A stretch of 64,000 nucleotides of DNA, taken from positions 4,945,501-5,009,500 of the forward strand of contig NZ_CP010429.1 in assembly GCF_000974425.1 (NCBI RefSeq), read 5' to 3'. Positions 42,588-64,000 of the stretch are shown here, one piece after another; position 1 is the first letter of the stretch, and every line of letters begins with the position of its first letter. The position numbers were made by a program, and so were the translations under genes. The notes beneath the pieces are model-generated. The model was given only the letters and a program-made list of their open reading frames with translations, searched no databases and had not been told where the DNA came from. The stretch comes from Spirosoma radiotolerans. Its GTDB lineage: Bacteria > Bacteroidota > Bacteroidia > Cytophagales > Spirosomataceae.

Positions 42588-42639
42588 CAAGAATCCGATG
42601 CTAAGCTACATCTGTAGCTTAGCATCGGATTCTTGTTTT
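42588..42639. terminator. Perfect 23-bp hairpin between convergent genes
   Basis: Arms 42588-42610 and 42613-42635 are perfectly complementary (containing ATCCGATGCTAAGC), with TTTT following on the plus strand. It ends the suf/bacilliredoxin transcript and faces the stop of eboC at 42638. Confidence 0.85.
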
Positions 42640-43579
42640 AGGTTACGGCAAAAATTTTCGCCAGAAACCGCGACAGCGGTAATAGGCAAAATACCAACAT
42701 AGCCAGCGGAAAAGACGCGAAAGAAGCCACCCAGGCCGCATTCATGACAATGAGCGATAGCACCCCCGCCCGCACTGCCAGGCCGATATTTCGCCCAACG
42801 GGTTCTTTTACAGCCCGCCAGAGTGGCGGAAAAATATAGTAACCAAACAAAAGCAGGAAAGGTAAAGCCGTACCCAACTGTTGTTGCCGTTGAGCCAGAG
42901 CCGCTACACAGCCAATGACAAGGGCATACAGGATACCGGCAAACCGTAAGGTAGTGGGACTCCCCCCATGCACCTCCCCCCGACTAATCATGGTAATTGC
43001 GGCAATGTAGGCGATCGGTACGATCCCGACCCACGCCCAGGGCAATACCTGATCGGGCAAAATACTGACGCCGAGCAACAGATTCAGTCCCCGACAGAGG
43101 CCCATGTTGACTGGACCCAGCCAATTGTGATGTTTACCAAACCGGTCATACACAAGCGATGCCACACTGATTCCAATCGCGAGGAAGCCTGCCGTTTGAT
43201 TGACTAGAAATGAGCAAACAATACCAATGACCAGCAGCAAAGCCCCCAATAAAGCAGCGGTAGATTTACTGACAATTCCACTCGGAATAGGGCGTTCCGG
43301 ACGCTCGACGGCATCCAGTTCAGCATCAAAAACATCGTTGAATACGACCCCCCCGCCATATAATCCAACGGTGGCCAAACAAAGCCAGCCCACTGGCGCC
43401 GGAGCCGGGTCAAACACCTGAAAATAACCCGCAATAGCCATACCCGCCAGCACATCGGCAACGGCCGTAACCAGGTTAGCCGGGCGGGTAAGGGAGAGAA
43501 GCGCTTTGAAATTTTTCAAGGATGAAGGGTGAATGATAAATGATGAACGATAAATGATTTTAGATTCATCATTTGTCAT
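42638..43579 (-). CDS. eboC: EboC-like UbiA-family prenyltransferase
   Basis: 313 residues from ATG 43579, one base after the eboB stop. The UbiA motif with two Asp groups is visible as FNDVFDAELD near residue 90, and the second Asp region is in VYDRFGKHHN. About eight membrane segments. The first 23 residues look like translated intergenic filler, and a TTG at 43519 aligns better with the start of the conserved KNFKALLSLTRPANL, so the true start is uncertain. The ebo cluster role is thought to involve a membrane-transported metabolite, with EboC as its prenyltransferase. Confidence 0.75.
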   Translation of the reverse strand: MTNDESKIIYRSSFIIHPSSLKNFKALLSLTRPANLVTAVADVLAGMAIAGYFQVFDPAPAPVGWLCLATVGLYGGGVVFNDVFDAELDAVERPERPIPSGIVSKSTAALLGALLLVIGIVCSFLVNQTAGFLAIGISVASLVYDRFGKHHNWLGPVNMGLCRGLNLLLGVSILPDQVLPWAWVGIVPIAYIAAITMISRGEVHGGSPTTLRFAGILYALVIGCVAALAQRQQQLGTALPFLLLFGYYIFPPLWRAVKEPVGRNIGLAVRAGVLSLIVMNAAWVASFASFPLAMLVFCLLPLSRFLAKIFAVT

Positions 43580-43580
43580 T

Positions 43581-44513
43581 CTATTTTATGATTGTGGATT
43601 CTTTATCAACCCGTGGGGCCTGTCCACCGCGCAGGATTGAGCTGCCATTGAAGCGTTGACTTTGATCGACACCCATTGGCTGGGTGAGTTCGTCGAGGCT
43701 AAGCTGCCCGCTTTGGGCAAAAGCCGTGATGGCATTGGTGAAGGTAACCAGCTTAATGGCCTCGTCTGAAATACCCCGCTGTTTCATTAAAGCGGCCGTT
43801 TTGGGCACCGCCAGCGGGTCGCTGATGCCCCAGTCGGCGGCTGAGTTGATCATAATCCGCTCCGGGCCATACTGCTTTACAATGTCTACCATCCGCTCAT
43901 TTCCCATTTTCGTAAACGGATAAATGGTAAAGCCTGCCCAGAAACCCCGGTCCAGTACTTCGCGCACCGTTTCCTCATTATTATGATCGACAATCACCAT
44001 GCCGGGCGCAATACCGTGCTCGATGGCAATATCCATACTGCGGCTGGTTCCCTGCTTTTTGTCGCGGTGGGGGGTGTGAATCTGAACCGGCAGATTGGCT
44101 TCTTTGGCAAGCTCCAGCTGAGCCCGGTAATATTTATCTTCGGCGGGTGTCTGGTCATCGAAGCCAATCTCCCCAACGCCTACCACACCTTCTTTATAGA
44201 TAAATAAAGGCAGGATTTCCATAACCTGCTCCGCTAATTCTTCCTGATTGGCTTCTTTGGAGTTTAATCCAATGGTGCAATAATGCCGAATACCGAACTG
44301 AGAAGCCCTAAACCGCTCCCACCCGACCAGACTGGCGAAATAATCGCGAAACGAATCGATACCTGTCCGGGGCTGACCTAACCAGAAAGCCGGTTCAATT
44401 AGGGCCACCACACCCGCATCGGCCATAGCCTGATAATCGTCGGTGGTCCGGGAGGTCATGTGGACGTGCATGTCGAAAAAAGACATGCCACGAATTGAAT
44501 CCATAAAATCCAT
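43581..44513 (-). CDS. eboB: EboB-like TatD-family metal-dependent hydrolase
   Basis: 310 residues. The H-x-H metal motif is near the start, FFDMHVHMTSRTT. Other conserved segments are GVVGVGEIGFDDQT, with the acidic ligand, and VQIHTPHRD. TatD-like enzymes of the amidohydrolase superfamily bind metals with such histidines. It is immediately upstream of eboC, with a 1-bp spacing, and together they represent the EboB/EboC pair of the ebo cluster. Substrate unknown. Confidence 0.8.
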   Translation of the reverse strand: MDFMDSIRGMSFFDMHVHMTSRTTDDYQAMADAGVVALIEPAFWLGQPRTGIDSFRDYFASLVGWERFRASQFGIRHYCTIGLNSKEANQEELAEQVMEILPLFIYKEGVVGVGEIGFDDQTPAEDKYYRAQLELAKEANLPVQIHTPHRDKKQGTSRSMDIAIEHGIAPGMVIVDHNNEETVREVLDRGFWAGFTIYPFTKMGNERMVDIVKQYGPERIMINSAADWGISDPLAVPKTAALMKQRGISDEAIKLVTFTNAITAFAQSGQLSLDELTQPMGVDQSQRFNGSSILRGGQAPRVDKESTIIK

Positions 44514-44750
44514 AATTGTACTACGTTAAGGCATTAAGCAAGCGTCAATAGCGTTGTAAAGTTCCGCAAAAAATAGCCCCCTTCTGCACGTTTTTTAGCA
44601 ACATTTAATCCTGATCAACAAACTTCACTCTAGTCTATTCGTTTTATAGATAGAGCTTTTAGGGAGTCATTCTCGCGTTGGCCGTCGGCTTATACAAGTA
44701 GTAAGATTCTTTATAAAAACTCGACAATTAACCGTACAACAAATGCAACC

Positions 44751-45428
44751 ATGAAGACGCATCATCAACGTAAAGTAGGAAAGTGGAAACTTGGGGCAGT
44801 TTTACTGCTTCTGGGCGTTGGCGGATTGACATCCTGCCGCGAAAATGCGGTCAACGACCTGAGCCCCGCCGATAGTCCAGTTTATATTACAAACTACGAC
44901 CGCTCGGTTAACTTCGGCCAGTATAAAACGTTTAGTCTGCCCGACTCGGTCATCATTGAGTCGAACGATTCGTATAGCATGACTCAAACGGATGTTTCAG
45001 GCCGATTTGTAACGAATGTAGCCAATGCCCTGACAGCAAAGGGATTCCGGCGGGTAAATCGAGGTGAAAACGCCGATTTGGGGGTAGCTATTATTCGGGT
45101 CAATAACCAGTATACGGGCGTTGCCTCCGACCCTTATTCGTACTATTCGAACTACTGGGGAGGGGGATTCGGAGGCTTTGGCGGGTATGGCTATTACCCT
45201 TATTACCCGAGCTACTACACCTACCAGGTTACGGATCAATACTGGGAAATTCAGATTGTCGATCTGAAAAATCGCCCCGCAACGGGCACCACGGGCTCAA
45301 CACAAGCCCAGTTAAATGTCATTTATGACGCCACTATCCGCGGCACCGACATCACCGATCAGCAAGCAGTCGACACAGCCGTGACCGCTATTTTTAACCA
45401 ATCGCCTTATTTGAAGGCCACAGAATAA
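44751..45428 (+). CDS. DUF4136 lipoprotein
   Basis: 225 residues with a lipoprotein signal (LLLGVGGLTSCRE, Cys near residue 29). The family's YDRSVNFGQYKTFSLPDS block follows, with a Gly/Tyr-rich stretch (FGGFGGYGYYPYYPSYY) in the middle. DUF4136 proteins are usually outer-membrane or periplasmic lipoproteins of unknown function. It overlaps the pattern of an operon with the barrel gene 6 bp downstream, and both are on the opposite strand to the ebo genes on either side. Confidence 0.85.
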   Translation: MKTHHQRKVGKWKLGAVLLLLGVGGLTSCRENAVNDLSPADSPVYITNYDRSVNFGQYKTFSLPDSVIIESNDSYSMTQTDVSGRFVTNVANALTAKGFRRVNRGENADLGVAIIRVNNQYTGVASDPYSYYSNYWGGGFGGFGGYGYYPYYPSYYTYQVTDQYWEIQIVDLKNRPATGTTGSTQAQLNVIYDATIRGTDITDQQAVDTAVTAIFNQSPYLKATE

Positions 45429-45434
45429 GCACGT

Positions 45435-46097
45435 ATGAAACCGATCATAGCCTTCGTTGCCCTGATGGCGTTAACAACAACGACCTGGGCACAGTATCAG
45501 AACGACAATAAAGGAAACTACAATTTCCCATCGCCTTATCAGGAATATGTAACGTTCAACATTTCGGCCCGGTATGGGGTCGCTTTCCCGATGGGCGGCA
45601 CTAAAGGGTATATTGATAAGGTATCGCCAACGAATCTAGCGTTGGACGGTGAATGGCTCTTTCCGAAGCGATTCTCCATTGGCCTCAAAACGGGTTACCA
45701 ATACAACAAGCAGCGTCTTCCTCGTCAGGTCTACGAATATGACAATCAGTCTATTTCGGCAGTGCAAACGCGTACGCTGTCGGTCATTCCGGCCATGGTT
45801 TCCCTATCCTATTACTTTGCCGATAATGCCGCAGCCCTCCGGCCGTATGTGCAGTTTGCTGGTGGTGGTGCCTATGTGGATTACACAAACTACTTCGGAA
45901 CGCTGGCCGATCAATCGCATGGTTTTAAAGGTGCGATTGCACCCGCTGTTGGTGTAAAGTATTATGGCAAGCGTGAACAGGGTTTAGGGGCTGAGATTCA
46001 GGCCCAGTACCAGAATGTTTTCTTCAACTATGACCTGTTGAAAAATAACAGCCCTTCGTTGATGCTGTCGGCCGGCATATCGTACCGGTTCTATTAG
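45435..46097 (+). CDS. Outer-membrane beta-barrel protein
   Basis: 220 residues, signal peptide MKPIIAFVALMALTTTTWAQ. The mature protein is built of barrel strands such as FNISARYGVAFPMGGTKGY, FSIGLKTGYQYN and LMLSAGISYRFY at the end, typical of an OmpA/OmpW-like small barrel. It is 6 bp after the DUF4136 lipoprotein gene and probably co-expressed, suggesting an outer-membrane pair. Confidence 0.78.
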   Translation: MKPIIAFVALMALTTTTWAQYQNDNKGNYNFPSPYQEYVTFNISARYGVAFPMGGTKGYIDKVSPTNLALDGEWLFPKRFSIGLKTGYQYNKQRLPRQVYEYDNQSISAVQTRTLSVIPAMVSLSYYFADNAAALRPYVQFAGGGAYVDYTNYFGTLADQSHGFKGAIAPAVGVKYYGKREQGLGAEIQAQYQNVFFNYDLLKNNSPSLMLSAGISYRFY

Positions 46098-46152
46098 GTT
46101 TTTGGTTTGTAGTTTACGGTTGGCTAACGCATTTGTATTGCCTTCGACCATT

Positions 46153-46232
46153 CATGGCCTGTGTCCTCACAGGCTATTTTTCGAACCAAACTAATGCTGA
46201 CGCAAGAATGGCCCGTGGGGACACAGGCCATG
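46153..46232. repeat. 80-bp inverted repeat element with GTGTCC core
   Basis: Arms CATGGCCTGTGTCC (46153-46166) and GGACACAGGCCATG (46219-46232) are perfect complements, extended by a mostly matching CACAGGC/GCCCGTG part. A related core (CCGTGAGGACAC) occurs at about 3340. It may be a dispersed palindromic element. Confidence 0.55.
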
Positions 46233-46301
46233 GATATGGTAACACTCCGCCGTCATTTAACTACCAACCGTAAACCACAAACTGTAAACCAAGAACCGCC
46301 A

Positions 46302-46976
46302 TTACATCAACTCACCAATATGGTCAGGCAAACTACGCCCGGCAGCCCGGCGTTCGGCAGCGTAATCGGCCAGCGTCTGAGCAAGTCGGGCGTTTTTACG
46401 ATCCTGCAGGCCGGTAATCTGTGTCACATCCTTGTCGGTGAAAAACGCTTTCATGATCAACTGATTCCAGGCCGCTTCACTGAAGTAGTCGGCAGGAAAA
46501 GGATTATGAAGCATAATCGCTGACTGAACATCAGCGATGTTGTTGCGGATACCTTCAGTGGCCTGAAACGTCCACGCTTCGGGATAGGCCAGCACGGGCA
46601 ACGCCGAATAAAGCGCGACCAATTCGTTCAACTCCCCGGCTTTGAATAGTTCACTGATCGTTTTCACATACGTATTCTGATTGTCAGCCGGGAGTTGCAG
46701 CAGCCACCAAACCCGCGCCAGCCGATCTAACGTCCAGCCATCAACTGTAAATCCTGGGCGAACCCGTTGCAGCGCAAATTGTATGTCAGCCGGTACATTG
46801 ATAGGTTGTTTCCCAACGAAACGGGGAATGGCCGTAAACACACGATAAAATACAGCGACTTGCTGCTTCTCATTGAAGGCATCGGCCTGTTGTTTAAGAT
46901 AGCTTACTGCCTTTTCAGAATTGGGTTGCTGTTCAAGCAAATAGAACAGCGTTTGACTCATTGTAAGAATATTCAT
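46302..46976 (-). CDS. eboA: EboA-domain protein
   Basis: 224 residues. Recognised by the all-helical EboA blocks: GWTLDRLARVWWLL near residue 75, YSALPVLAYPE, RNNIADVQSAIMLHNPFP, and the C-terminal LQDRKNARLAQTLADYAAER. No enzymatic motif is visible; the function is unknown even in cyanobacteria, where ebo genes are needed for scytonemin-type pigment precursor export. It lies 57 bp downstream of xerC on the same strand, away from the other ebo genes. Confidence 0.85.
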   Translation of the reverse strand: MNILTMSQTLFYLLEQQPNSEKAVSYLKQQADAFNEKQQVAVFYRVFTAIPRFVGKQPINVPADIQFALQRVRPGFTVDGWTLDRLARVWWLLQLPADNQNTYVKTISELFKAGELNELVALYSALPVLAYPEAWTFQATEGIRNNIADVQSAIMLHNPFPADYFSEAAWNQLIMKAFFTDKDVTQITGLQDRKNARLAQTLADYAAERRAAGRSLPDHIGELM

Positions 46977-47033
46977 GGGACAAAAAATAACAGGAATCCA
47001 AGCCGGTTATGACGCACATCCACCCAATCTAAT

Positions 47034-47939
47034 TTAGCGCTTGGCCTTTGGATGGGCCTGATCGTACGTCTTCTTCAACTGTTCCAGGCTGGTATGTGTA
47101 TAAATCTGCGTGGCGGCTAAACTACTGTGTCCAAGCAAATCTTTAATGGCGTTTAAGTCGGCTCCCCGATTGAGCAGGTGCGTGGCAAAGGAGTGACGCA
47201 ACACGTGCGGGCTTTTCTTTTCAAGCGTCGTGACCAGCGTCAGGTGCCGGGTCACTATGCGTTGAATCAGCATAGCGTATGCCGGAACGCCCTTGTCACT
47301 CACAATCAAATGCACACGATCTGCCTGGCCCAGAAACGTTTCCTCTTTTAGCCGACTGTATTGTTGGATGAGCGCAAACAGAGGGTCGGTCAGGGGAATG
47401 ATCCGGTGCTTATTCCGCTTGCCCAGCACCGTAATTGTCTTTTCATAGAGGTTTACATCAACTGTTTTCAGGCCCGTTAGCTCACTTAGCCGGATGCCCG
47501 TCCCATACAGTAATTCGAGTACCAGTTTATCGCGCACCCCCTCAAAGGTATCGGGAAAATCGACATCGCTAAGCAACATGTCCATTGGCTTTTCCTCCAC
47601 GTACTGGGGCAGTTTCTTACTGGTTTTCAACGCCTGAATTTTCGACATTGGATCGAAGTCAATCACTTTTCGGCGAAGTAAAAAACCAAAGAAAGCGCGA
47701 AGTGTCGCGATTTTCCGGTTTACGGACGATTTATCGGTTTTCCCTTCCACCAGGCTCACGATCCAGGAGCGAACGTGCCGAAAATCAGCAAGTTCGGGTT
47801 GGCCGATGTTGCACTCAGTAAGGAGAAACGTGCAAAATTGCTCTAAATCCTTCGTATACGCGGTTAGGGTATGATGGCTGAGTCGTTTTTCGAACCGAAT
47901 GTGCTGCAGGAAGTCCTGACCCAGTTGTGTTTGATCCAT
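47034..47939 (-). CDS. xerC: Tyrosine recombinase XerC/XerD
   Basis: 301 residues. The N-terminal SAM-like DNA-binding domain is followed by the catalytic domain with the R-H-x-x-R-Y set: Arg in LELLYGTGIRLSELTGL, the His-x-x-Arg in PHVLRHSFATHLL, His in DLLGHSSLAATQIY and the nucleophilic tyrosine in IYTHT. It resolves chromosome dimers in partnership with another Xer. Location just downstream of rpsU is a housekeeping position in Bacteroidota, so it is not a mobile-element integrase. Confidence 0.9.
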   Translation of the reverse strand: MDQTQLGQDFLQHIRFEKRLSHHTLTAYTKDLEQFCTFLLTECNIGQPELADFRHVRSWIVSLVEGKTDKSSVNRKIATLRAFFGFLLRRKVIDFDPMSKIQALKTSKKLPQYVEEKPMDMLLSDVDFPDTFEGVRDKLVLELLYGTGIRLSELTGLKTVDVNLYEKTITVLGKRNKHRIIPLTDPLFALIQQYSRLKEETFLGQADRVHLIVSDKGVPAYAMLIQRIVTRHLTLVTTLEKKSPHVLRHSFATHLLNRGADLNAIKDLLGHSSLAATQIYTHTSLEQLKKTYDQAHPKAKR

Positions 47940-48063
47940 TTGATTCCATTGAGTTTATCAGGTCAAATTTACTCATCTTGCGCTGATGAATCGGCTTAAA
48001 GTTACAACTCAACAGACAGGCGCCAATGTTCATGCAAATCCGTGAAATCACAAAAATCCGGAT

Positions 48064-53604: not shown

Positions 53605-54420
53605 CTACGACAATCCAAACCGCTGATTCACCATTGCAAAAAACTCTTCGTTGCTCATGCTTTTCCAGGCACCATATAACGCTTGCGCATCCTGTCCGGC
53701 CACATACCGTATTTGGTCGGTGTCGTCGGTAGCGGCCTGATAAATGACCTCGGCAATCTGATCAGCGGTTGAGTAGTTGGCAGCATTCGTACCAAAGGCG
53801 GCAAACACTTTCTCCAGTGCCGCGTCATACACGCTTGCGCCGTCCATTGTCCGTTGTAACGAACGGGTAGCAAAATCAGTGATTACGCCACCGGGCGCAA
53901 CGACCTTAACCCGAATGTTGAACGGGCGAAGTTCATAATTCAGTGACTCCGATAGCCCGTCAACCCCAAATTTAGTGGCGTGGTAAATCGAGTTGAAAGG
54001 TAAGCCGACCAGACCGCCAATTGACGTAATATTGATGATGGTGCCCCCGCCTATGGCGCGGAAATTGGGCAACAGTGCTTTAATGGTTCGCATCACCCCA
54101 AACATATTGGTGTTGAATTGATCCATAACTTTCTCCTCCGATGCCGTTTCCAGTGGCCCCGCCAACCCATAACCTGCGTTGTTCAGCAGCACATCGATGT
54201 GTTGCCAGTCGGCCAGCGCCTGCTCGACCGCCTGGGTTACGCTGTCGGTCTGAGTTACATCAAGGGCGTACACTTTAATAGTCGGATACTGCTGTAACTC
54301 GTTCTCATGCTGTGGGTTACGCATAGTTGCGGCAACGTTCCAACCTTGTTTGGAAAATAAAATAGCTGCGGCTTTGCCAATGCCCGACGACGCTCCCGTT
54401 ATGAAAATTGTCTTTGCCAT
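53605..54420 (-). CDS. Short-chain dehydrogenase/reductase
   Basis: 271 residues. TGASSGIG near residue 8, NNAGYGLAG near 85, catalytic serine in INITSIGGL and the Y-x-x-x-K as YHATK near 152. It is of the SDR type often annotated as oxidoreductase; substrate unknown. The histidine kinase gene at 54447 ends 26 bp upstream of its start, on the same strand, so they might be co-transcribed. Confidence 0.87.
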   Translation of the reverse strand: MAKTIFITGASSGIGKAAAILFSKQGWNVAATMRNPQHENELQQYPTIKVYALDVTQTDSVTQAVEQALADWQHIDVLLNNAGYGLAGPLETASEEKVMDQFNTNMFGVMRTIKALLPNFRAIGGGTIINITSIGGLVGLPFNSIYHATKFGVDGLSESLNYELRPFNIRVKVVAPGGVITDFATRSLQRTMDGASVYDAALEKVFAAFGTNAANYSTADQIAEVIYQAATDDTDQIRYVAGQDAQALYGAWKSMSNEEFFAMVNQRFGLS

Positions 54421-54446
54421 GGTTATTTATTCGACGATATACGCCC

Positions 54447-56534
54447 TCATACGGGCAGGTAGATACTGAATTTTGCGCCAAATCCCGGTTGGCTCATGGC
54501 GGAGATGGCCCCTCCGTGATTTGTTACTACCTTTTGGCAGATAGCTAATCCAACACCAGTACCGGCAAATTCATTCCTGCCATGCAGCCGCTGAAAAACC
54601 TGAAAAATACGGTCAGCGTACTTCTCATCAAAACCAATGCCGTTGTCAGTGATTTCTATTGAATGATAGGCGGCCGTCTGCCGGGTAGGTTTCACACCAG
54701 CGGGTAAATCTTCTAACTGGACAACACCCACATGGACCCTAATTTGAGGAGAAACGTCCTGCCGTCGAAACTTGAGCGCATTTGAGAAAAGGTTCTGAAA
54801 CAATTGACCCAATTGCGAGGCATCGCCCAATACCGTTGGTAGCGGATCTATCTCAATTTGCGCATTCGTTTCGTCAATAGCAACCGACAAATTTTCGAGC
54901 GCTTCGCCAACAACCCGAGAGAGCGATACCCGAGCGGCTGGTGCCGGGCTAGTCGAGATGCGCGAGAATGCCAATAAATCCTTTATCAACAGCGACATAC
55001 GGCTGGCGGCAACCTGCATCCGTTCCAGATAAACAAGTTCATCGCCCGATGACGAAAACGCATAGCGCGTTTTGAGCAGATCACTAAACTGCTGAATCTT
55101 GCGTAAGGGTTCCTGCAGGTCGTGGCTGGCAATGTAGGCAAACTGTTCCAAATTCTGGTTGGAACGGGTAAGATGCTGATTGGATTCAGCAAGTCCCTGA
55201 TTCGCTTCGGTCAGTTCCTCGTTAGTAGCGGCTAGTTCTTCATTGGTAGCCGCCAGTTCTTCAATTGTGGCGGCTAGTTCTTCGTTCGTTATCTCTAACT
55301 CTTCAGTACGCTCTCTAACCTGTTGTTCCAGTGCCAGTTGAAGTCTTCTCTGCTCAGTAACATCCTGGGCACTCCCACTTAATGTAATAGGGGTCCCCTT
55401 TTCATTGTAGAATAACTGGGCCTGTGTATGAATGATTCGCACCTGACCCGTAAGCCGGTTGATGATTGGATGCTCGTTTTCATAACGACCGGATGAACCC
55501 GGCTGAATAACGGAATCGATGGTGTAGGCAACCATATTCCGATATTCGACAGGCACCGTATCTAAGGCTTCATCCAGCGTTTTGGTCTCAGCAGTAAAAC
55601 CAAGCCAGCCCATAAACCGCTTCGAATAACTGAATGTGTTTGTTTCAATATCCAAGCTCCAGGTCGCCAACTCAGCCAGTTCGATCGCTCCCCGAAGGGT
55701 TTCTTCTGTATTTATTAGCCTCCGATTCGCCAATACCCGGTCGGTCACATCAACCGCCATGTTCAGGATGGCATAAACGTTTCCTTCTTCGTTGGTGAGA
55801 GGCTGGTAGGTGAATGTAAACCAAAAGCTTTGCAGACGTCCATCCACCACCAGATATACCTCCTGCTCGTCGGTTTGGTATGCGACATTGGTGTCATAAA
55901 CCTGTTCCAGCAAGCCAATAAAGGGTTGACCCTCCAGTTCGGGCAGGGCCTCGGCCAGTTTCATGCCGATGACCGCAGGCGTTTTTCCCCACACCTTAAT
56001 CATGGTATCATTGGCCATGTCAATAATAAGCTCCCGCGTTGCGTAAACACCAATTGCAAACGGAGCCTCCTTAATCAATCCCCTGAACCGCTGTTCGCTT
56101 AGTTCAATACGCTGGCGAGATAGGACGTCCTCGGTAACATCCTGTGCAACTCCCGAAAATCTGAACACTTCGCCTGCCTCGTTAGCATAGCTCCGTCCCA
56201 TAAAGCGAACCCAGCGCAGACGGCCATCTCTGGCACCAATTGTGCGATAGGTAACATCATACTCACCACTGCCCTGAGGGTCAATGGCTAGTTGTACGGC
56301 TTGATTTACTCGGTCTATATCATCGGGATGAATATGCCGGACAGCCTGATCATAGAGAATTTGATTGCTCTGAGCCATGCCATATAATTCCTGACAGCGC
56401 TCGTCCCAGTGCACTATAGACGTTGCCGGGTCTACTTCCCAAACGCCAAGCCGGGCTGCCTTCAAGGCAAAATTTACATCTAAACGCTCGTTGAGGGCCT
56501 TGTCTTGATTATATGGCTTTTGCTCGCCAGTCAT
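54447..56534 (-). CDS. PAS-domain sensor histidine kinase
   Basis: 695 residues. Three PAS-type domains occupy about residues 20-135, 150-265 and 280-395. A heptad coiled coil follows (about 400-470, with repeated AATNEEL). The HisKA domain has the phosphoacceptor histidine in IASHDLQEPLRKI (about 480), and the ATPase has N, G1 (DNGIGF), F and G2 (GTGVGLAIC) boxes. No membrane segment is visible, so it senses cytoplasmic signals. No response regulator is adjacent; an orphan kinase. Confidence 0.9.
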   Translation of the reverse strand: MTGEQKPYNQDKALNERLDVNFALKAARLGVWEVDPATSIVHWDERCQELYGMAQSNQILYDQAVRHIHPDDIDRVNQAVQLAIDPQGSGEYDVTYRTIGARDGRLRWVRFMGRSYANEAGEVFRFSGVAQDVTEDVLSRQRIELSEQRFRGLIKEAPFAIGVYATRELIIDMANDTMIKVWGKTPAVIGMKLAEALPELEGQPFIGLLEQVYDTNVAYQTDEQEVYLVVDGRLQSFWFTFTYQPLTNEEGNVYAILNMAVDVTDRVLANRRLINTEETLRGAIELAELATWSLDIETNTFSYSKRFMGWLGFTAETKTLDEALDTVPVEYRNMVAYTIDSVIQPGSSGRYENEHPIINRLTGQVRIIHTQAQLFYNEKGTPITLSGSAQDVTEQRRLQLALEQQVRERTEELEITNEELAATIEELAATNEELAATNEELTEANQGLAESNQHLTRSNQNLEQFAYIASHDLQEPLRKIQQFSDLLKTRYAFSSSGDELVYLERMQVAASRMSLLIKDLLAFSRISTSPAPAARVSLSRVVGEALENLSVAIDETNAQIEIDPLPTVLGDASQLGQLFQNLFSNALKFRRQDVSPQIRVHVGVVQLEDLPAGVKPTRQTAAYHSIEITDNGIGFDEKYADRIFQVFQRLHGRNEFAGTGVGLAICQKVVTNHGGAISAMSQPGFGAKFSIYLPV

Positions 56535-57021
56535 TGATAAAAAATTAGTGTTTATAGTACAGTAACGCCTTAATATAGTTTTGGGTTTTCAAGTTCTTCA
56601 TTTCATTCAGACAGATAAGGGCTGATAATTTTAATTGAGCAATATACCCTGAGGTATAAACAATAAGTAAACCCCACGTGGGTACAGACAACTAGCCGCC
56701 AACGCTTATACGTAAGCTTATCGTGACCAGTTTCGATAGACGGAATTAAACTAGAAAGAAACTTCGGGGATATTGACAGAAGTAGATCGCAGGACGTTTA
56801 CCTTTTAAATCTTCCTGCCACTATAAGCTAAAACCAGACTCTTGTAGAAGAATCTGGCCTGGCCATTTATATATACGTGAGAAGCTAGGATTACCTCGTT
56901 TGTGCAGTTAACAGAAAACCTAACTAATGTAGGCCATGCGTAGTTTATTTACCTCCCTTGGTCGTACAAGCTGGCTGATATAAACGTGTGCTCTGTTAGC
57001 TGCTATTATTTTACCCAACTA
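56535..57021. other. 487-bp AT-rich intergenic region upstream of the kinase
   Basis: No coding frame is convincing. Visible are small palindromes: TATACC-N4-GGTATA at 56643-56658 and CCCACGTGGG at 56673-56682. The kinase promoter should lie here, but no TAnnTTTG box was found at good spacing. Confidence 0.4.
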
Positions 57022-57318
57022 TTACATTAATAACAATTTACAGACAAACCCTAATACAGTTAACCCGGCGATGACACCAGCCGAAAACAGCCAGCTTTCT
57101 TTTCGTGTCAGACTATACATTAAATGGTTGTTTTCATCCAATCCAACGACGTCTCTACCCGATACCCAGTATGATGATGGCTCATCCATCGAGTAACACG
57201 AATATGTCTCCTGACTGATGGCTAATAGCTCATCCAGCTTACGACTATTTCCATGTTGATTAGCTGATATAACGACAGTTGACAAAGCAGGGCGGATGAT
57301 TGAAATAGCAGGGTTCAT
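57022..57318 (-). CDS. Small protein with C-terminal membrane anchor, unknown
   Basis: 98 residues; hydrophilic N-terminal 75 residues, with a tyrosine/serine-rich segment (ETYSCYSMDEPSSYWVSGRD), then one hydrophobic helix at the very end (LFSAGVIAGLTVLGFVCKLLLM), so probably tail-anchored in the inner membrane. No family recognised and no neighbour suggests a role. It lies in the AT-rich stretch at 56.5-59 kb. Confidence 0.45.
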   Translation of the reverse strand: MNPAISIIRPALSTVVISANQHGNSRKLDELLAISQETYSCYSMDEPSSYWVSGRDVVGLDENNHLMYSLTRKESWLFSAGVIAGLTVLGFVCKLLLM

Positions 57319-57707
57319 GAGTGTACGTTTATGCCTTAGTGCTTAGTGGTTTATGCGAGCGATTTATAGTACAAGATTGATAAATAATGAGCCGAAGAAG
57401 CCTGCCTTTTCGATGAACTGTCGGTTTTGCCCGTTTTTTGGTTGAAAAGTCAGGAAACTGCAGTTTTTAACAGATCTGTGGTTATCCTTAAAAAGCGGTA
57501 CGTCAGTATTGTTTTTATTTTACGCAAAATGTGAGAGAAAGACTACAGAGAGTCATTTGAGATAATTTGAAAACAAAATACCGCTCTTAGTGGTCGGCAG
57601 ATAAAAAAAAGAGCCCTGACTTTATAGCCAGAGCTCTTTGCACGCGCAGAGTAGCCTACGTGTTAGGTCTTTACTTAAACAGAACGGCGGGTTCTGAAAG
57701 CACGTGG
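57319..57707. other. 389-bp gap with terminator of the downstream minus-strand gene
   Basis: Holds the terminator at 57603-57639 and otherwise no gene. The sequence is AT-rich. Confidence 0.4.
57603..57639 (-). terminator. Intrinsic terminator on the minus strand
   Basis: Minus strand AAAGAGCTCTGGCT, ATAA loop, AGTCAGGGCTCTTT (14-bp stem with two wobbles), followed by T8. It lies about 70 bp after the stop of the gene at 57708 and supports that gene as real. Confidence 0.75.
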
Positions 57708-58091
57708 TTAGACCACAAACCGACTTATGTTCAATTCCTGTTGATGACGCGCCCAGATTAAGTCCCGCTTTGCCTGAAAAGACATGGACACTTCCTTCGA
57801 CTCCTGCGATTCAGCAGCCAGTATGGCCGATTGATCCAAGATACTCAATGACCCCACCTGACGCCGAATATGTCTGTAATTTTCCCGAACCTGTTCAACG
57901 GCCTGGCTCTCAAGCCTATAATGTTGCTTCCACTCCTGAACATGCCGCTGAAGAAGTTGCACCCAGGTTAGGGTAGCCTCTTCTGAGCCTGGCGTGATGG
58001 AAGACACATTCATCTCAATAGTCTGTTGCCGATAAGCACCCAGCAACTGGTTAAATGCATCACTAGTCATAATTACCTTGTAGTAATTCAA
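57708..58091 (-). CDS. Hypothetical helical protein
   Basis: 127 residues, mostly helical and Gln/Glu-rich (VQLLQRHVQEWKQHYRLES, then QAVEQVRENYRHIRRQVG), without signal or membrane segment. No family recognised. A proper terminator downstream supports expression. The overlapping plus-strand frame (57704-57976) lacks such signs. Confidence 0.5.
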   Translation of the reverse strand: MNYYKVIMTSDAFNQLLGAYRQQTIEMNVSSITPGSEEATLTWVQLLQRHVQEWKQHYRLESQAVEQVRENYRHIRRQVGSLSILDQSAILAAESQESKEVSMSFQAKRDLIWARHQQELNISRFVV

Positions 58092-58446
58092 CGGAGCTTA
58101 CTTTAAATCAAGAATCTCCGCTTTTTGCTTGTTCGTAACAAAGTTAATAAACGGAGACGTGCTTTTTCATAGATTGACTAAACGGTATGATTCTAGCCTA
58201 TTTTGGCTGTTTTTGGCTATAAATTCCTTTCCTTTATTTGGCTTAATCAATGTTACACTAATTCCATATATTAACTAAATTACATACCAGTATTTTTTTA
58301 ATAATATAATAATATATACTCAGTGACCATGGTAACAATATAGAGTCTAAACATATGTGGCAGTAACTATTTTTATACATCAAGTTATCAGGTGAATCTT
58401 CTGTTAACGGGCCCTCATTCTGGAGGCTTTGTCAACAACAAAGGAC
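58092..58446. other. 355-bp AT-rich region with likely divergent promoters
   Basis: Lies between divergent genes at 57708 and 58447. It contains long A/T runs, notably around 58300-58330, but no motif I could fix. Confidence 0.4.
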
Positions 58447-58719
58447 ATGAACACAATAAACAAACAGAACAAGGCGCATCTGGAAGAACAGAAATACAGG
58501 CTTGAACATAACCTGGCCAATAGCCGCAAGTTTCTGGCTTTTTTTGAATCGAGGTTACCGAAAGGATATAGCGAGTTGAGTGCCAGCGATTTTACGTCCG
58601 ATTTACAAAGTCAGTTTGCGGAGTCAGCCTACAGCCACAAACAGCTGATAGCCATGCTGGAAATCTACCGCAACGAGGTCATAAAAGCATTGGCACCCTA
58701 TACACAGCAGGTTGATTAA
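58447..58719 (+). CDS. Hypothetical helical protein
   Basis: 90 residues from ATG 58447 (a TTG at 58429 adds six). Predicted all-helical with a charged start (NKQNKAHLEEQKYRLEHNLA). No signal or membrane segment and no family recognised. A hairpin terminator follows at 58794-58822. Part of the AT-rich orphan-gene patch. Confidence 0.5.
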   Translation: MNTINKQNKAHLEEQKYRLEHNLANSRKFLAFFESRLPKGYSELSASDFTSDLQSQFAESAYSHKQLIAMLEIYRNEVIKALAPYTQQVD

Positions 58720-58793
58720 TCGAAAGGACCCATTTATTGACCAACTGATACAGAAGCAGATAGGGTCGTTTTCATATAGAAAGCCCAAAAAAG

Positions 58794-58822
58794 AATTAAC
58801 GCAGAAATATCCTGCGTTAATT
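58794..58822 (+). terminator. Hairpin terminator candidate
   Basis: AATTAACGCAG with CTGCGTTAATT (11-bp perfect stem, 7-base loop), then TTTTTAATTTTA about 15 bp on. Located 75 bp after the preceding stop. Confidence 0.55.
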
Positions 58823-59015
58823 ACCCAATTCATTCTTTTTAATTTTAGTTACAAACTAAGAGAAATTAAAATGAATTGTATGTATGCCGCCAAACTATTT
58901 CTAAAGTAACGCTCACAAGCGATCAATTGTGACTACTTGCGTTAGGCAATACTCATAGTTTGACAAAAAATTATTTCTTTCCACAAACAAGATTTACTGT
59001 CAGCTTAGGGGTTTC

Positions 59016-59528
59016 TTATTCTTCCCGTTTCTTAATCGTCTGCACAACCTTTCCGTTTTCAACCAGCCTTGTTTTCAATACTGTCTGTTTAGGAATCATC
59101 ACGACTAACATTGGCTGTACAGCTTCCGGTAATGGCGATTTGGTCAGAATGGTATCAGCCATACGTATATAGCGCACCGTTAAAGTTGAATCTTGCACAA
59201 ATATTTTGCTTACAGAGAGCTTTGGTGGCGTTTTGGTCGAAGGCAAGGCAATTCCGATGGCCATTTCTTTGTCAAAATTGGGAGCATCGCGTTTACGAAC
59301 TGAACCTGTTGAAACAGGTTGAAACACCTGACTGAACGTTTCGGCTTGCTCAAAGACAAAAAGTGTGGGCTTCCCTTTGATTACGGGCGCATCGGGGTTG
59401 AGGGTATAGCCTGTCAGTAAACGGTACGTCAGGTTCACTTGGGCGAGAACGAATAAACTGGAAAACAGACCGATAGCGACAAGAAGAGGAATGCGTAAAT
59501 GGCGATAAAATGAAGCAAAAGAGGACAT
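59016..59528 (-). CDS. Secreted protein of unknown function
   Basis: About 170 residues from ATG 59528 (a TTG two codons upstream is less likely). A signal peptide or anchor (LRIPLLVAIGLFSSLFVLAQV) leads into a mature part that mentions no known domain; segments such as KPTLFVFEQAETFSQVFQ and IGIALPSTKTPPKLSVSKI suggest beta strands. No family recognised. It is downstream of the lipoprotein at 59637 on the same strand, with a 108-bp gap. Confidence 0.55.
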   Translation of the reverse strand: MSSFASFYRHLRIPLLVAIGLFSSLFVLAQVNLTYRLLTGYTLNPDAPVIKGKPTLFVFEQAETFSQVFQPVSTGSVRKRDAPNFDKEMAIGIALPSTKTPPKLSVSKIFVQDSTLTVRYIRMADTILTKSPLPEAVQPMLVVMIPKQTVLKTRLVENGKVVQTIKKREE

Positions 59529-59636
59529 AATCAAACAAAAACTAAATGATAACCATACTTGGTTAACGTCCGACTAAGCCATTCGGTGTATAGGTGCTCA
59601 GAAAAAAGCCGTTGGAAAACTTATCGCTGGAAATGA

Positions 59637-60191
59637 CTAGTTCTGCTTGGCTTCCGAATTAAGCGGATTCTGAACGGTCATGCCCGCGACATTGAAGCAT
59701 GAATTCATATTATCGCTCTTGCACTCAAATAAATCAAACGATTCGACGCCCTTATCCAGCCGTTCGAAATAGAGCACAAACACCACTTTTTCGTCATTCT
59801 TGATTTCGCGGCTATCCGGCGACATAGGAATGCCTTCCGTCTTCACCAATGCATACGTGCGCTTACCATCGGCCGACGCCAGCACCGCCTTAGGGTTGAA
59901 CGAAATGTTGCTGGTGCCGTAGTAATTGCTATACCGATCGTCCTTGTTTTTGCCAAACGTCATATACAGTACTGTGTAGCTAGCCGTCAGGCGAATGTCC
60001 GTCACACGAATATCGGGATCCTGTGCATGGCCAAGCCCGCCTTGTGGATCGGGATAGAGCCGGGGCATAACCGCCGATACTGGCTGATTGGGCTGGTAGT
60101 ATTCAGCACCATCGGCCGGCGCATTTGTGGCTACGGGCCGGGTCGACGTACAGGCAGAGACCAACAGAATGAGGGCGACGAGGGCTTTCAT
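59637..60191 (-). CDS. Lipoprotein of unknown function downstream of eboF
   Basis: 184 residues with a lipobox (LVSAC, Cys 14). The mature part is beta-rich with two more cysteines near the end (FECKSDNMNSCFN). No family recognised. It starts 39 bp after the eboF stop on the same strand, so it may share the eboDEF transcript, but it is not a known ebo component. Confidence 0.6.
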   Translation of the reverse strand: MKALVALILLVSACTSTRPVATNAPADGAEYYQPNQPVSAVMPRLYPDPQGGLGHAQDPDIRVTDIRLTASYTVLYMTFGKNKDDRYSNYYGTSNISFNPKAVLASADGKRTYALVKTEGIPMSPDSREIKNDEKVVFVLYFERLDKGVESFDLFECKSDNMNSCFNVAGMTVQNPLNSEAKQN

Positions 60192-60230
60192 AAAGTTAAA
60201 TTACGTGCTTTCGTCCAAATAACCAACAAC

Positions 60231-61634
60231 TTAGCTCGTCTGTTTTTCAACTATTCCGACGGATAGCGTCTCCCATATTTTATCGTATACTTCCGTGGCT
60301 GTCAACGTCTTGCCCACGTTCTGGCTGCTCACAAAAACAGGGTGGTGTTCGGGAGCGGTCCCGATTCGCCCATGTGATCCTTTCACGAGGGTGGCATCCA
60401 GCGAAATGACGTTCATCAGATACCGGAACCCAAGCAGTTTACGACCTAACTTATACCCCGCTTTTAGTTTGATAAACGGATTGGTTTGGTCCATGAACAT
60501 CTCGACGGGATCATAGCCGGGCTTTTGATGGATAGCTACCAGCCGGGCAAAGTCGGGGGCGCGGGCATCATCGAGCCAGTAGTAGTAGGTAAACCAGCTA
60601 TCGGCATCGGCGACCACCACCAGATCGCCGGAGCGTTCATGATCGATGTGGTACTGCTTCTGCTGCTCTTTATCCAGCACGAGTTCAATGCCGGGTGTTT
60701 TTTCCAGCAACGCCCGAACTTTACTGAAGACAGATTGGTCGTTGATATACACGTGGGCAATCTGGTGATCAGGCGTAGCGAAAGCGGGCGAAGCACCCGC
60801 GTCGAACAATTCCAGGCCACGCTCCTCCCGGTAGCGGATCATGCCTGCTTCGCGTAGAATCCGATTGATATGAATGGGTTTGCTGACGTTCGTTATCCCA
60901 TATTCCGACAGAACGATGATTTCGGCGTTCTGCTGTTCATAGTACTGAATCAGGTCACGGCAAACATCGTCGATTTCCCGTAAGTCATTGCTAATTTTTG
61001 AGAAATCCTGCCCGGACGCGGGACCGCCAAACTTCTGCAGGCAATAATCGAGGTGGGGCAGGTAAATTAGCGTCAGGGTCGGGTTGTGCCATTTATCAAC
61101 CAGCATAGAGGCATCGGCAATCCAGCGGGTGCTCTTAATCGTTGTGGCCGGCCCCCAGAACTGGAAGAGCGGAAATGTTCCCAATTCGTTCGTGAGTCGG
61201 TCGCGCAGGTCGCCGGGCTGGGTGTAGCAATCGGGGATCTTCATGCCGTCGGATGGGTACTGCGGCCGGGGCGTAGCTGAATAATCGGCCGACGAATACA
61301 TGTTATACCACCAGAACATTTTCGAGACCGTAAAATTGGGGTCCAGCTTTTTGGCCCGTTCCCAGATCTTTTCCCCGGCAACGAGTTTGTTCGATTGTTT
61401 CCAGAATTTCACTTCTGAATCCGTCCGATCATACCAGCCATTGCCAACGATACCGGTTTCGCTGGGCCATTTGCCCGTTACGTAGGTAGACTGCACCGAC
61501 GTTGTCAGGGCGGGAAGCATTGGGGCAATGGTCGCCTGGTTTTTACCGGCAAACCACTGTTTCAGAAAAGGCGTATGCTCGCCAATCAGCGAATACGACA
61601 AACCTACAACGTCGAGGACTACGGTCTTTTTCAT
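60231..61634 (-). CDS. eboF: EboF-like type I phosphodiesterase/nucleotide pyrophosphatase family protein
   Basis: 467 residues. The alkaline-phosphatase-superfamily core is seen as VLDVVGLSYSL at the start, with the nucleophile threonine in PALTTSVQSTYVTGKWP, the LIYLPHLDYCLQ block and VLSEYGITNVSKPIHINRIL. Metal-binding residues near GDLVVVADADSWF and SHGRIG also fit. In ebo clusters this is the phosphodiesterase-like member; its substrate is unknown. It is 53 bp after eboE. Confidence 0.78.
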   Translation of the reverse strand: MKKTVVLDVVGLSYSLIGEHTPFLKQWFAGKNQATIAPMLPALTTSVQSTYVTGKWPSETGIVGNGWYDRTDSEVKFWKQSNKLVAGEKIWERAKKLDPNFTVSKMFWWYNMYSSADYSATPRPQYPSDGMKIPDCYTQPGDLRDRLTNELGTFPLFQFWGPATTIKSTRWIADASMLVDKWHNPTLTLIYLPHLDYCLQKFGGPASGQDFSKISNDLREIDDVCRDLIQYYEQQNAEIIVLSEYGITNVSKPIHINRILREAGMIRYREERGLELFDAGASPAFATPDHQIAHVYINDQSVFSKVRALLEKTPGIELVLDKEQQKQYHIDHERSGDLVVVADADSWFTYYYWLDDARAPDFARLVAIHQKPGYDPVEMFMDQTNPFIKLKAGYKLGRKLLGFRYLMNVISLDATLVKGSHGRIGTAPEHHPVFVSSQNVGKTLTATEVYDKIWETLSVGIVEKQTS

Positions 61635-61647
61635 AATGATGAATCAG

Positions 61648-61700
61648 GAGTGAAGAATGATATATGCTATACCAGACACGGTATCCATCATTCTTCACTC
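61648..61700. repeat. 14-bp inverted repeat spanning the eboE stop
   Basis: GAGTGAAGAATGAT (61648-61661) and ATCATTCTTCACTC (61687-61700) are perfect complements, with a smaller ATACC/GGTAT stem inside. It covers the eboE stop and the eboE-eboF junction, so it could affect expression of eboF. Confidence 0.6.
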
Positions 61701-62923
61701 ATCGTTATTTTAAGCACCCACTTCATTTCCCGCTCAATTGAATCGACCAGGCTTTTCTTTAAATCCTCCGGCAGTACGCCCCATGTATAAGTTTCGACCT
61801 CCAGTTGATTGGTAAACATCCGATCGGCCTGCAACTGGAGCACCTCCCGAATATCGTCCTGGGTGGATGTCAGCACACCATAATCCGACACAAAAAGCGG
61901 AACATGAAAATGCGCCCTCCATTCGGCATGCGTCTCATTAAATCCAGCCAATGCGTCGGGCAAATCGGGAAAGCGAACCAACTCACCAGCCTGCGTTCGA
62001 GCCACCACCTGGTGCAGGTACGTCGGTTCGTTAAATTCTCCAAACGCCTGCCGAACCGTTTCGCGCTCATTGGCTGCTATGGGGAACTCCGCTTTTAAAG
62101 CCGCGCTAATCTGAATTTTACCGACGCGCAAACCATAATTTTTGAGTTTATCCAGCACTTCAGCCGGACGTTCGTAGCCCACCGCAAAATGGCAGACATC
62201 ATAACACAACCGAACATGCTCACAGATGATAGCCTCGGCTTCTTCATCAGTGAGCCCAAATTCTTCGCTTAACTGCTCAATGCCCATTGGCAGCAGATAG
62301 TCGGTAAACCAGCGAATGAACTCGTCGGCCGTTTCAATAACGCCGTCTGGTTCCGGCTCCAGATCCAGGTGCATGAGCCGGTCAGTTTGTTTTCTTAGAC
62401 GGACCAGATCCGCCACAACCTCAAGTACATTTTGGGTCGTTTGGGAAAAGATATAGTCGCGGGCGGCCGGTTGCTCCCACTCAAACCAGTGCCGGTAAGT
62501 CAGTGGCGAGGTAGACACGCCCCCCTGAATGGGATTCCCCAGTTCGTCGACCGGCAACAGAACGGATAAGATGCGAAACAGCCGTTTGGTGTATTCCACT
62601 CGGGCTTCGGTGGTCCAGTCGGGGGCATGCACCTGATCCTTGACAACGACGTCATGAAAGCCCCCGAATGGAAAGCCGTTCATGGTAAAGACGTAACAGT
62701 CGTTTTGCGCTAACCAATGTTGAAAAGCAACCAGATTTTCGGGAATTTCCAGTTCCTCGCTTGCTATATTCGACAGGCGCAACCCAATACCAAAGGGAGC
62801 TTCTGGCGACAGTCGTTGCTTCAATTCCGGAACGGCCTGTTGCAGGGCCATAAAATGGTCCGCCCAGGTTTCACCAGCATGAATATTCGTGCAATAGCCG
62901 AGATGGCCGAGGGAAGTTTTCAT
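61688..62923 (-). CDS. eboE: EboE-like TIM-barrel (xylose isomerase-like) protein
   Basis: 411 residues of the AP-endonuclease-2/xylose-isomerase TIM-barrel superfamily. The conserved HAGETWADHF is near the start; metal-ligand type segments include MNGFPFGGFHD, LDLEPEPDGVIE, YDVCHFAVGYE and RVHFHVPLF-like RAHFHVPLF. Length fits EboE. It overlaps no gene: eboD ends 10 bp upstream and eboF starts 53 bp downstream, one operon. Confidence 0.8.
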   Translation of the reverse strand: MKTSLGHLGYCTNIHAGETWADHFMALQQAVPELKQRLSPEAPFGIGLRLSNIASEELEIPENLVAFQHWLAQNDCYVFTMNGFPFGGFHDVVVKDQVHAPDWTTEARVEYTKRLFRILSVLLPVDELGNPIQGGVSTSPLTYRHWFEWEQPAARDYIFSQTTQNVLEVVADLVRLRKQTDRLMHLDLEPEPDGVIETADEFIRWFTDYLLPMGIEQLSEEFGLTDEEAEAIICEHVRLCYDVCHFAVGYERPAEVLDKLKNYGLRVGKIQISAALKAEFPIAANERETVRQAFGEFNEPTYLHQVVARTQAGELVRFPDLPDALAGFNETHAEWRAHFHVPLFVSDYGVLTSTQDDIREVLQLQADRMFTNQLEVETYTWGVLPEDLKKSLVDSIEREMKWVLKITMSEE

Positions 62924-62933
62924 ACGAGAAAAC

Positions 62934-64000
62934 CTACAGGGTTTCAGACACCTTGTAGGTTTGAAAAGCTAATGAATCTGTTTTTCGTAACGTGGCAATG
63001 GCCTGCCGAATACGGTCGGCGTCCATCTCGTGCACTTCTACTCCCTGCCCAAGGCCCTTCAGGAGCATAATGGTCAGCTGGCCGCCCAAATGTTCGCGAA
63101 ATTCGGAAAGTCCTTTCAATACCCCGGCGCTATTGTCGGCATCGAGCATGGGCTGGTAAAGAGCAAAGCCAAGTGTGCGGAGTGTCGTCAGAATACGGTT
63201 CGTATCCGATTCAGTAAGCCAGCCAAGTTGCTGTGAGTATAGGCTATCAAGCGCAATACCAATGGCAACTGCTTCGCCGTGCCGAATCTCGAAGTTGGTG
63301 AGCTGTTCCAGTTTGTGTGCGCTCCAGTGGCCAAAATCAAGCGGCCGGGAGGAACCCATTTCAAACGGATCACCACCTGCAATATGCTGTAAGTGCATCT
63401 CGGCGCACCGATGAACGAGGTATTGCATCGCCGGCATGTCGCGGGCGGCCAATTCCTCGGCATGTGCTTCAATCCATTCGAAAAACGGCCTGTCCTTGAT
63501 AAGCGCCACTTTAATGGCTTCGGCGATACCCGCCCGCCAGTCGCGATCATCGAGTGTCGTTAGAAACTGGCTGTCATTGAACACAGCTACGGGCGGGACG
63601 AAGGTGCCGAGAAAATTTTTCTTTGCCCGGTAATTGACGCCATTTTTAACGCCCACTCCCGAGTCGTTCTGCGAAAGCACCGTTGTCGGAATTCGAATAT
63701 GGCGAATACCGCGGTGTGAAATAGCAGCCGCATAACCCACCAGATCCAGCACCGAACCGCCCCCGATAGCCGCCACATACGAATGACGATCAATACCATA
63801 ACGATCAACAGCATCAACAATCTGCTCGACAAAATCGGAGTCATTTTTGGCTATTTCACCCCCCGGAATAACCAGAAAGTCAGCCAAAAGATCCACAAGA
63901 TCAGCGTGTTTGGCAAAGTACGTCCGAATATCATCCTGTACATCCGGGTGCGTATCAACAACGCCTGAATCCATAATAAACAGAAGCTTTTTCCGCGTAT
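62934..64000 (-). CDS. eboD: EboD-like 3-dehydroquinate synthase family protein, partial
   Basis: At least 355 residues; the frame stays open to the right edge, and the eight codons before the internal ATG at 63974 (reading KKLLFIMDSGV) fit the conserved beginning of the family, so the real start is outside. Metal ligands of dehydroquinate synthase are kept: Glu in AGIAEAIKVALI, His in FGHWSAHKLE and His in RHGEAVAIG. The nucleotide motif is AAIGGGSVLDLVG. It belongs to the ebo-type sedoheptulose/DHQS-like branch rather than to the shikimate pathway enzyme; that distinction is by context. Confidence 0.82.
   Translation of the reverse strand, partial: TRKKLLFIMDSGVVDTHPDVQDDIRTYFAKHADLVDLLADFLVIPGGEIAKNDSDFVEQIVDAVDRYGIDRHSYVAAIGGGSVLDLVGYAAAISHRGIRHIRIPTTVLSQNDSGVGVKNGVNYRAKKNFLGTFVPPVAVFNDSQFLTTLDDRDWRAGIAEAIKVALIKDRPFFEWIEAHAEELAARDMPAMQYLVHRCAEMHLQHIAGGDPFEMGSSRPLDFGHWSAHKLEQLTNFEIRHGEAVAIGIALDSLYSQQLGWLTESDTNRILTTLRTLGFALYQPMLDADNSAGVLKGLSEFREHLGGQLTIMLLKGLGQGVEVHEMDADRIRQAIATLRKTDSLAFQTYKVSETL

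Follow-up and report, generated by a model that had tools for sequence, protein, structure and literature searches.

Comparative gene order points to chromosomal inversions as the probable cause of a genus-wide split of the ebo genes in Spirosoma

The ebo pathway is widespread, and the structure of its operon has been a main clue to its function. An ebo operon with the order eboA-B-C-D-E-F is described for Bacteroidota and for the plastids of eustigmatophytes in the main text of PMC5133447, which suggests an isoprenoid-cyclitol product and in its section 3.2 lists sets that are split, namely those of Arenibacter (eboA apart), Adhaeribacter aquaticus (eboE-F apart) and Planctomycetes (no clustering). 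According to the sections of PMC6282210 on Nostoc punctiforme, in-frame deletion of eboA, eboB, eboC, eboE or eboF each stops scytonemin, and the monomer stays in the cytoplasm and not the periplasm; a lipid carrier and a possible membrane complex of EboA, EboB and EboC are proposed there, with sugar chemistry, likely the formation of a cyclitol, among the ebo reactions. Section 8 of the same paper states that the EDB cluster of Pseudomonas fluorescens NZI7 holds the full ebo set. Farnesylation of quinoline-like aromatics, with 8-HQA as the best substrate, is reported in PMC9235831 for a prenyltransferase of the EboC group. The main text of PMC5133447 does not mention Spirosoma, and none of the papers listed by a literature search for ebo in this genus dealt with the subject, judged by title or abstract. 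Here, we describe the ebo genes in a 64,000-nucleotide stretch of the Spirosoma radiotolerans genome (G000:C1:4945501-5009500, hereafter the window) and compare their arrangement with that in related genomes.

Gene order across the family makes it probable, at about 0.85, that the ebo genes at this locus form a single set, ordinary and complete, which was clustered in an ancestor and has since been cut by chromosomal inversions. All six genes are present in this 7.03-Mb one-contig genome, each in a single copy and on the minus strand, and they extend over 21 kb in three pieces, A, B-C and D-E-F:

42638..43579, minus strand: eboC, UbiA-type membrane prenyltransferase (NF035940, 409.5 bits, cut-off 250; PF01040)
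43581..44513, minus strand: eboB, TatD-like metallo-dependent hydrolase (PF01026), single copy
46302..46976, minus strand: eboA, with the EboA domain (NF035938, 166.4 bits, cut-off 50)
60231..61634, minus strand: eboF, phosphodiesterase/pyrophosphatase-like (PF01663, 209.4 bits), present in 36/36 Spirosoma genomes
61688..62923, minus strand: eboE, TIM-barrel protein (NF035939, 493.5 bits, cut-off 250), 36/36 Spirosoma genomes
62934..64157 (window frame), minus strand: eboD, sugar phosphate cyclase of the DHQ-synthase superfamily (PRK06203, 561.5 bits, cut-off 333; PF01761, PF24621)

The eboD gene crosses the window edge by 157 bases, its full open reading frame of 407 amino acids lying at L003:9434-10657 (G000:C1:5008434-5009657), and 13.3 kb separate eboA from eboF. 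EboC, EboE and the EboA domain all score above the cut-offs of their models; the stricter EboA family model, NF035937, was missed (208.2 bits against a cut-off of 320), and the protein is still called EboA because it matches the domain model. A profile search of the window proteins matched no ebo-specific model for EboB, EboD or EboF. These three fall into the expected superfamilies (TatD, DHQ-synthase and phosphodiesterase) and are orthologous to genes of compact clusters; their identity rests on homology, since in 53 of the 80 named loci the best tblastn matches of the six window proteins are collinear, in the order A-B-C-D-E-F on one strand and spanning no more than 9 kb. In a scan of named genomes with EboE, Spirosoma records were among the nearest, at 80-88% identity. 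Within its own genome each of EboA, EboE and EboB found one match, as did each of EboB, EboC, EboD and EboF at E <= 1e-60, and the EboC profile found one match above its cut-off and two weaker ones below it. The original prediction, made from the sequence alone, had placed a complete ebo set on one strand at these positions and had proposed a profile search as a check; open reading frames, family models and collinear homologues now bear it out, and no second copy of any ebo gene, let alone the second intact operon that it had named as a counter-argument, was found in this genome at the thresholds used. As a separate observation, a short imperfect repeat where eboB and eboC meet (43519-43578) gives EboC an N-terminal extension; its profile match starts at residue 27, and in the other 34 genomes no match starts before residue 11.

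Gene-order maps were made by tblastn of window genes on stretches of 47 genomes, comprising 36 Spirosoma, 2 Fibrisoma, 4 Larkinella, 2 of the group g26, 2 Rudanella and the genome G063. Two genes were counted as adjacent when no other mapped gene lay between them and they were at most 3 kb apart; contig ends mask some adjacencies, and the counts come from related genomes and are not independent. Larkinella and g26 share the order SUF-brxA, sdr2 and then ppx-xerC-eboA-[OMP-DUF4136]-eboB-C-D-E-F (the SUF genes and brxA were not seen in the stretch of one genome of this set, G026). The typical Spirosoma order is SUF-brxA-eboC-eboB-[DUF4136-OMP]-eboA-xerC-ppx ... sdr2-GT-eboD-E-F, so that the GT-to-eboC block, placed between brxA and eboD, runs in the opposite direction. 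The comparison of related genomes, also proposed in the original prediction, is clear on this point: eboC and eboD are adjacent in 0/36 Spirosoma and 0/2 Fibrisoma genomes, and in 6/6 Larkinella and g26 and 2/2 Rudanella genomes, hence in 8/8 near outgroups. In their place, eboC adjoins brxA in 23/36 Spirosoma and 2/2 Fibrisoma genomes and in 0/8 near outgroups, while eboD adjoins GT in 27 and sdr2 in 7 of the 36 Spirosoma genomes; the 13 Spirosoma genomes without the eboC|brxA adjacency include further-rearranged genomes and contig ends. Both adjacencies expected from a single inversion (eboC with brxA, and eboD with GT or sdr2) are therefore seen, which supports it. Where eboA and eboE share a contig (24 of the 36 Spirosoma genomes), eboE lies upstream of eboA in 21, and 14 of these 21 have the two genes on opposite strands, an upstream position and reversed strand that match the prediction of one inversion. 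On the outgroup side, GT or sdr2 is the next mapped gene to brxA within 3 kb in 3/6 genomes. Read from this comparison, the separation of eboC from eboD would come down to one inversion, breaking brxA|GT and eboC|eboD, with one breakpoint in the window:

42577..42637, no strand: putative breakpoint of the first inversion at the brxA|eboC junction, placed by the eboC|brxA adjacency counts

The same junction contains a perfect 23-nt inverted repeat (42588-42635), terminator-like between the convergent genes. Inverted repeats were considered as the motor of the inversions and did not convince: besides this hairpin, those found were two hairpins behind eboA and an 80% 30-nt repeat pair 13 kb apart, one arm of which lies in coding DNA.

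The original prediction had offered two other origins, that the set was broken by insertions or that it was assembled separately. Insertion does account for the gap between eboA and eboB, where a DUF4136/OMP pair sits, and for later gaps between eboE and eboF in 5/36 genomes, so that part of the claim stands; as the cause of the large gap it is highly improbable, because an insertion at C|D would have kept D-E-F downstream of eboC on the same strand, whereas eboE is upstream of eboA in 21 of the 24 linked genomes and the block is reversed. Separate assembly by independent acquisition of the three pieces would fit their positions in many Spirosoma genomes, where they are separated, widely separated or placed on different contigs. 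It scarcely agrees, however, with the near outgroups, which keep all six genes clustered, those of Larkinella and g26 beside the same xerC, ppx and sdr2, with the 53 collinear loci noted above, or with the tree of concatenated ebo proteins, in which Spirosoma groups with Fibrisoma, Rudanella and Larkinella (g26 nearby), and we regard it as just as improbable as insertion. The trees used throughout were built with FastTree on concatenated ebo proteins or on neighbour genes and were rooted by few outgroups. An observation of its own in the ebo tree concerns L059 (Flavobacterium sp. SUN052 contig17), whose eboB-F group with Rudanella and whose fetched stretch gave no eboA match above 100 bits; its placement reflects either a transfer or a wrong label.

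Several points weigh against a history as simple as one inversion. GT was mapped in only 2/6 of the Larkinella and g26 genomes (both g26; in G048 it lies between brxA and sdr2), and in Fibrisoma eboD adjoins GT or sdr2 in 0/2 genomes. The Spirosoma node in the ebo tree has a printed support of 0.36, a label that may have shifted on re-rooting, and Rudanella branches inside and yet has a compact A-F cluster without the DUF4136/OMP pair, at another place, which calls for a loss or a relocation. The DNA behind eboF, tried as a third witness of the inversion, gave no support: only 8 of 58 outgroup open reading frames matched the fetched Spirosoma and Fibrisoma DNA, at 46-49% and all at one edge of one genome, so that the right side of D-E-F must have changed as well. 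This last difference, together with the further displacement of D-E-F that several genomes show, as far as 3.45 Mb from eboA, is what one would expect if D-E-F had moved as a block next to GT, by transposition or by excision and re-insertion, with no inversion of the GT-to-eboC block. Moving D-E-F alone, however, would have left the direction of xerC-A-B-C unchanged relative to SUF-brxA, and in Spirosoma that block runs the other way, with eboC next to brxA in 23/36 genomes; we therefore consider a block move unlikely and retain inversion as the preferred explanation.

A second, lineage-specific inversion appears to have restored the common strand in the window:

54422..64000, on to about 66317 (window frame), no strand: putative segment of the second inversion, from alignment to the Spirosoma genome G133

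Window positions 53612-54421 align forward to G133 18589-19398, and positions 59015-66317 align reversed to G133 26927-19564, so that the ends 54421 and 66317 (window frame) are separated by 11.9 kb in the window genome and by 166 bases in G133. Reversed alignment, to G133 36174-35370, is also seen for pieces of the PAS kinase gene (54484-55290). These alignments indicate that the segment from sdr2 to the PAS kinase was flipped in the window lineage. G133 and G125, relatives of the window genome in both trees, keep D-E-F opposite to A-B-C, the unflipped state, as does G140 judged by xerC (its eboA is on another contig, and it is included in the first of the two trees only); the clade of the window genome with G133, G126, G004 and G128 has a FastTree support of 0.999. 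The minus strand shared by A-B-C and D-E-F in the window would then be secondary and not a residue of operon order. A like flip is seen in five genomes of the clade G089, G123, G124, G131, G142 and G145 (support 1.0; G145 is split over contigs) and looks independent of the window's, as the trees place it apart. Elsewhere, in G068 and G135 (and in G138 by contig evidence), eboC stayed beside brxA and eboB went with the rest; eboB and eboC remain adjacent in 32/36 Spirosoma genomes. Within the second inverted segment, a stretch of about 2.5 kb with few convincing genes (56535-59015, between the PAS kinase and the small gene hM) is a possible rearrangement scar. In addition, the set is broken further by gaps of 3.7-4.6 kb between eboE and eboF in G121, G123, G124, G132 and G136 (5/36), and in G132 a contig end also separates eboD from eboE.

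Taken from comparative gene order, the proposed history has three steps. First, the DUF4136/OMP pair would have entered between eboA and eboB before the parting of Larkinella and Spirosoma. Second, in the common ancestor of Spirosoma and Fibrisoma, the block GT-sdr2-ppx-xerC-eboA-to-eboC would have been inverted, which set eboABC apart from eboDEF. Third, in the window lineage, a segment of about 12-17 kb lying between sdr1 and the PAS histidine kinase would have been inverted, which brought D-E-F back onto the strand of A-B-C.

Physical linkage and retention of the genes were followed in a family sample of 121 genomes, the window's own and 120 others. EboA and EboE each occur in 107/121 and are missing from the same 14 genomes, so the two are kept and lost together as a module. 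EboC scores above its cut-off in 106/121; it is below in 13 of those 14 genomes and in the fragmented assemblies G010 and G067, and the remaining one of the 14, G025 (66% complete), retains an EboC piece above the cut-off. Outside Spirosoma, eboE lies 3.5-7.0 kb downstream of eboA on the same strand in 88 of the 97 sampled genomes with both genes, the nine exceptions being two Fibrisoma genomes, the pair G054 and G056 (eboA on another contig) and five assemblies fragmented into about 200-890 contigs. Among the 36 Spirosoma genomes, eboA, eboE, eboD and eboF are each found in 36 and eboB and eboC in 35; the genome without the latter two is G140, which is 80% complete and in about 1030 contigs. 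All six genes are present in 32/32 Spirosoma genomes with a completeness of 90% or more and a contamination of 5% or less. The distance between eboA and eboE in this genus ranges from 10 kb to 3.45 Mb when they share a contig (24/36), and in 12/36 they are on different contigs. A|B and C|D adjacency were each found in 0/36 Spirosoma genomes, so the genes are not clustered as an ebo operon, and the earlier judgement that the set is dispersed and a single operon unlikely holds for the whole genus. In one genome eboD matches as two overlapping pieces (G144:C1:4449257-4450440), owing to a frameshift either in the gene or in the assembly.

The ebo genes are under strong purifying selection, with dN/dS of 0.008-0.083 against G133, G004 and G125 (17 of 18 values; one eboD value was not computable); these values resemble those of neighbour genes, and dS is often saturated. 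Promoter-like elements were sought as the motif TAnnTTTG, which we take to be the -7 element of Bacteroidota promoters, within 100 bp upstream of each gene, with expected counts from shuffles; near outgroups and compact clusters share some members. Before eboD the motif occurs in 31/36 Spirosoma (4.0 expected), 2/2 Fibrisoma (0.3) and 7/53 compact clusters (5.8). Before eboA it is found in 16/36 Spirosoma (1.5 expected), 2/2 Fibrisoma (0.0), 6/9 near outgroups (0.2) and 10/53 compact clusters (3.9), and before eboB in 9/35 Spirosoma (3.2), 0/2 Fibrisoma, 3/9 near outgroups (0.7) and 7/53 compact clusters (3.2). It was absent before eboC, eboE and eboF in Spirosoma (0/35, 0/36 and 0/36); in compact clusters it precedes them in 1/53, 1/53 and 9/53 (1.6, 1.6 and 2.5 expected). 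In the window's genome the motif stands 12 bp before the first eboD ATG, and the ATG at codon 13 may be the real start. Transcription of D-E-F may start at a promoter immediately upstream of eboD and that of B-C at one within the divergent gap between eboB and the DUF4136 gene, and eboA may be transcribed with or just behind xerC. Three findings count against this picture: the motif before eboD also occurs in 3/9 near outgroups (0.8 expected) and may predate the split, the full -33/-7 pattern was found within 250 bp before eboD in 0/36 Spirosoma genomes, and the motif is absent before eboA and eboB in the window's own genome. That the dispersed genes are relics of a pathway that has ceased to function as a unit in Spirosoma is very unlikely given the complete sets in all 32 near-complete genomes, the purifying selection and the promoter-like element before eboD.

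It is probable that all six proteins continue to work in a single pathway, in which, following the literature, D-E-F would carry out sugar or cyclitol chemistry and A-B-C a membrane prenyl-carrier step. The C|D split coincides with the border of the proposed A-B-C membrane complex, which could be chance because one event fixed C|D and A|B had been separated earlier. A more far-reaching idea, which we hold tentatively and find doubtful on balance, is that the break separates a membrane half (A-B-C) from a soluble sugar/cyclitol half (D-E-F) that acquired its own promoter after the inversion, the halves being separately controlled in Spirosoma and Fibrisoma and yet kept or lost together; if true, Spirosoma would be a natural dissection of ebo into submodules.

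Four neighbouring genes border the ebo pieces in the window:

44751-45428, plus strand: DUF4136 protein (PF13590), between eboA and eboB, not part of ebo
45435-46097, plus strand: second gene of the pair, called OMP, taken for an outer-membrane protein, without a Pfam match, not part of ebo
59016-59534, minus strand: hM, a small gene behind eboF, neighbour in Spirosoma and Fibrisoma
59637-60191, minus strand: hL, lipoprotein-like protein directly behind eboF

The DUF4136/OMP pair (44751..46097) sits at the same place between eboA and eboB in Larkinella and g26 and, judged by gene order, is an older insertion. As an extra ebo part it was ruled out by the homologues of the OMP gene, the only one of the two that was searched: they occur in 14/26 genomes, three of which (the window genome, Fibrisoma and Larkinella) have the gene between eboA and eboB, and in Rudanella and other genera they lie at sites apart from ebo. 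The pair had been called unrelated from the start, and this agrees. In the case of hL, adjacency to eboF in 33/36 Spirosoma and 2/2 Fibrisoma genomes (0/8 near outgroups) made a new ebo part attractive, an idea then weakened by homologues away from ebo in other genera; matches to hL occur in 99/121 family genomes, many of them weak and in longer proteins, and also in genomes without ebo. Both hM and hL are probably hitchhikers. Between the convergent OMP gene and eboA (46097-46300) there are nested inverted repeats (32 nt at 84% and 27 nt at 85%), terminator-like, and beside the SUF genes (30479-36544, plus strand) lies a gene for a surface-type protein of 2021 amino acids with, by eye, about a dozen nearly identical repeats of some 100 amino acids.

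These genes have been uncoupled and yet not lost, which suggests that close linkage and a single transcript are not needed, and their joint loss elsewhere in the family indicates that they still act together. In experiments, the pieces into which the set is split can be deleted at a smaller risk of polar effects. The split also offers a traceable case of operon evolution, from the outgroup order through a first and a second inversion to a promoter-like element before the new first gene.

Compared with the ebo operon of Bacteroidota and eustigmatophytes as described in PMC5133447, the Spirosoma set has the same six genes of the same families, and the outgroups retain the same ancestral order; it differs in being split genus-wide into A, B-C and D-E-F, apparently by inversion, with D-E-F on either strand. 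Like the split sets in section 3.2 of that paper, it is complete or nearly so without forming one operon; the passage that lists those sets gives no mechanism, whereas the Spirosoma break falls at C|D in 36/36 genomes, and in 2/2 Fibrisoma, and an origin by inversion can be traced. Split ebo sets are thus already known, and the genus-wide split by probable inversion adds a new form to them. The EDB cluster of P. fluorescens NZI7 is, by section 8 of PMC6282210, part of a larger cluster and tied to resistance to nematode grazing. The ebo cluster of N. punctiforme shares the EboA, EboB, EboC, EboE and EboF families with Spirosoma; as described in PMC6282210, it differs in that it is cyanobacterial, is tied to scytonemin through export of the monomer, and has eboD nearby in the opposite direction. 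By analogy, the Spirosoma set is taken to do the same kind of work as the Nostoc ebo proteins.

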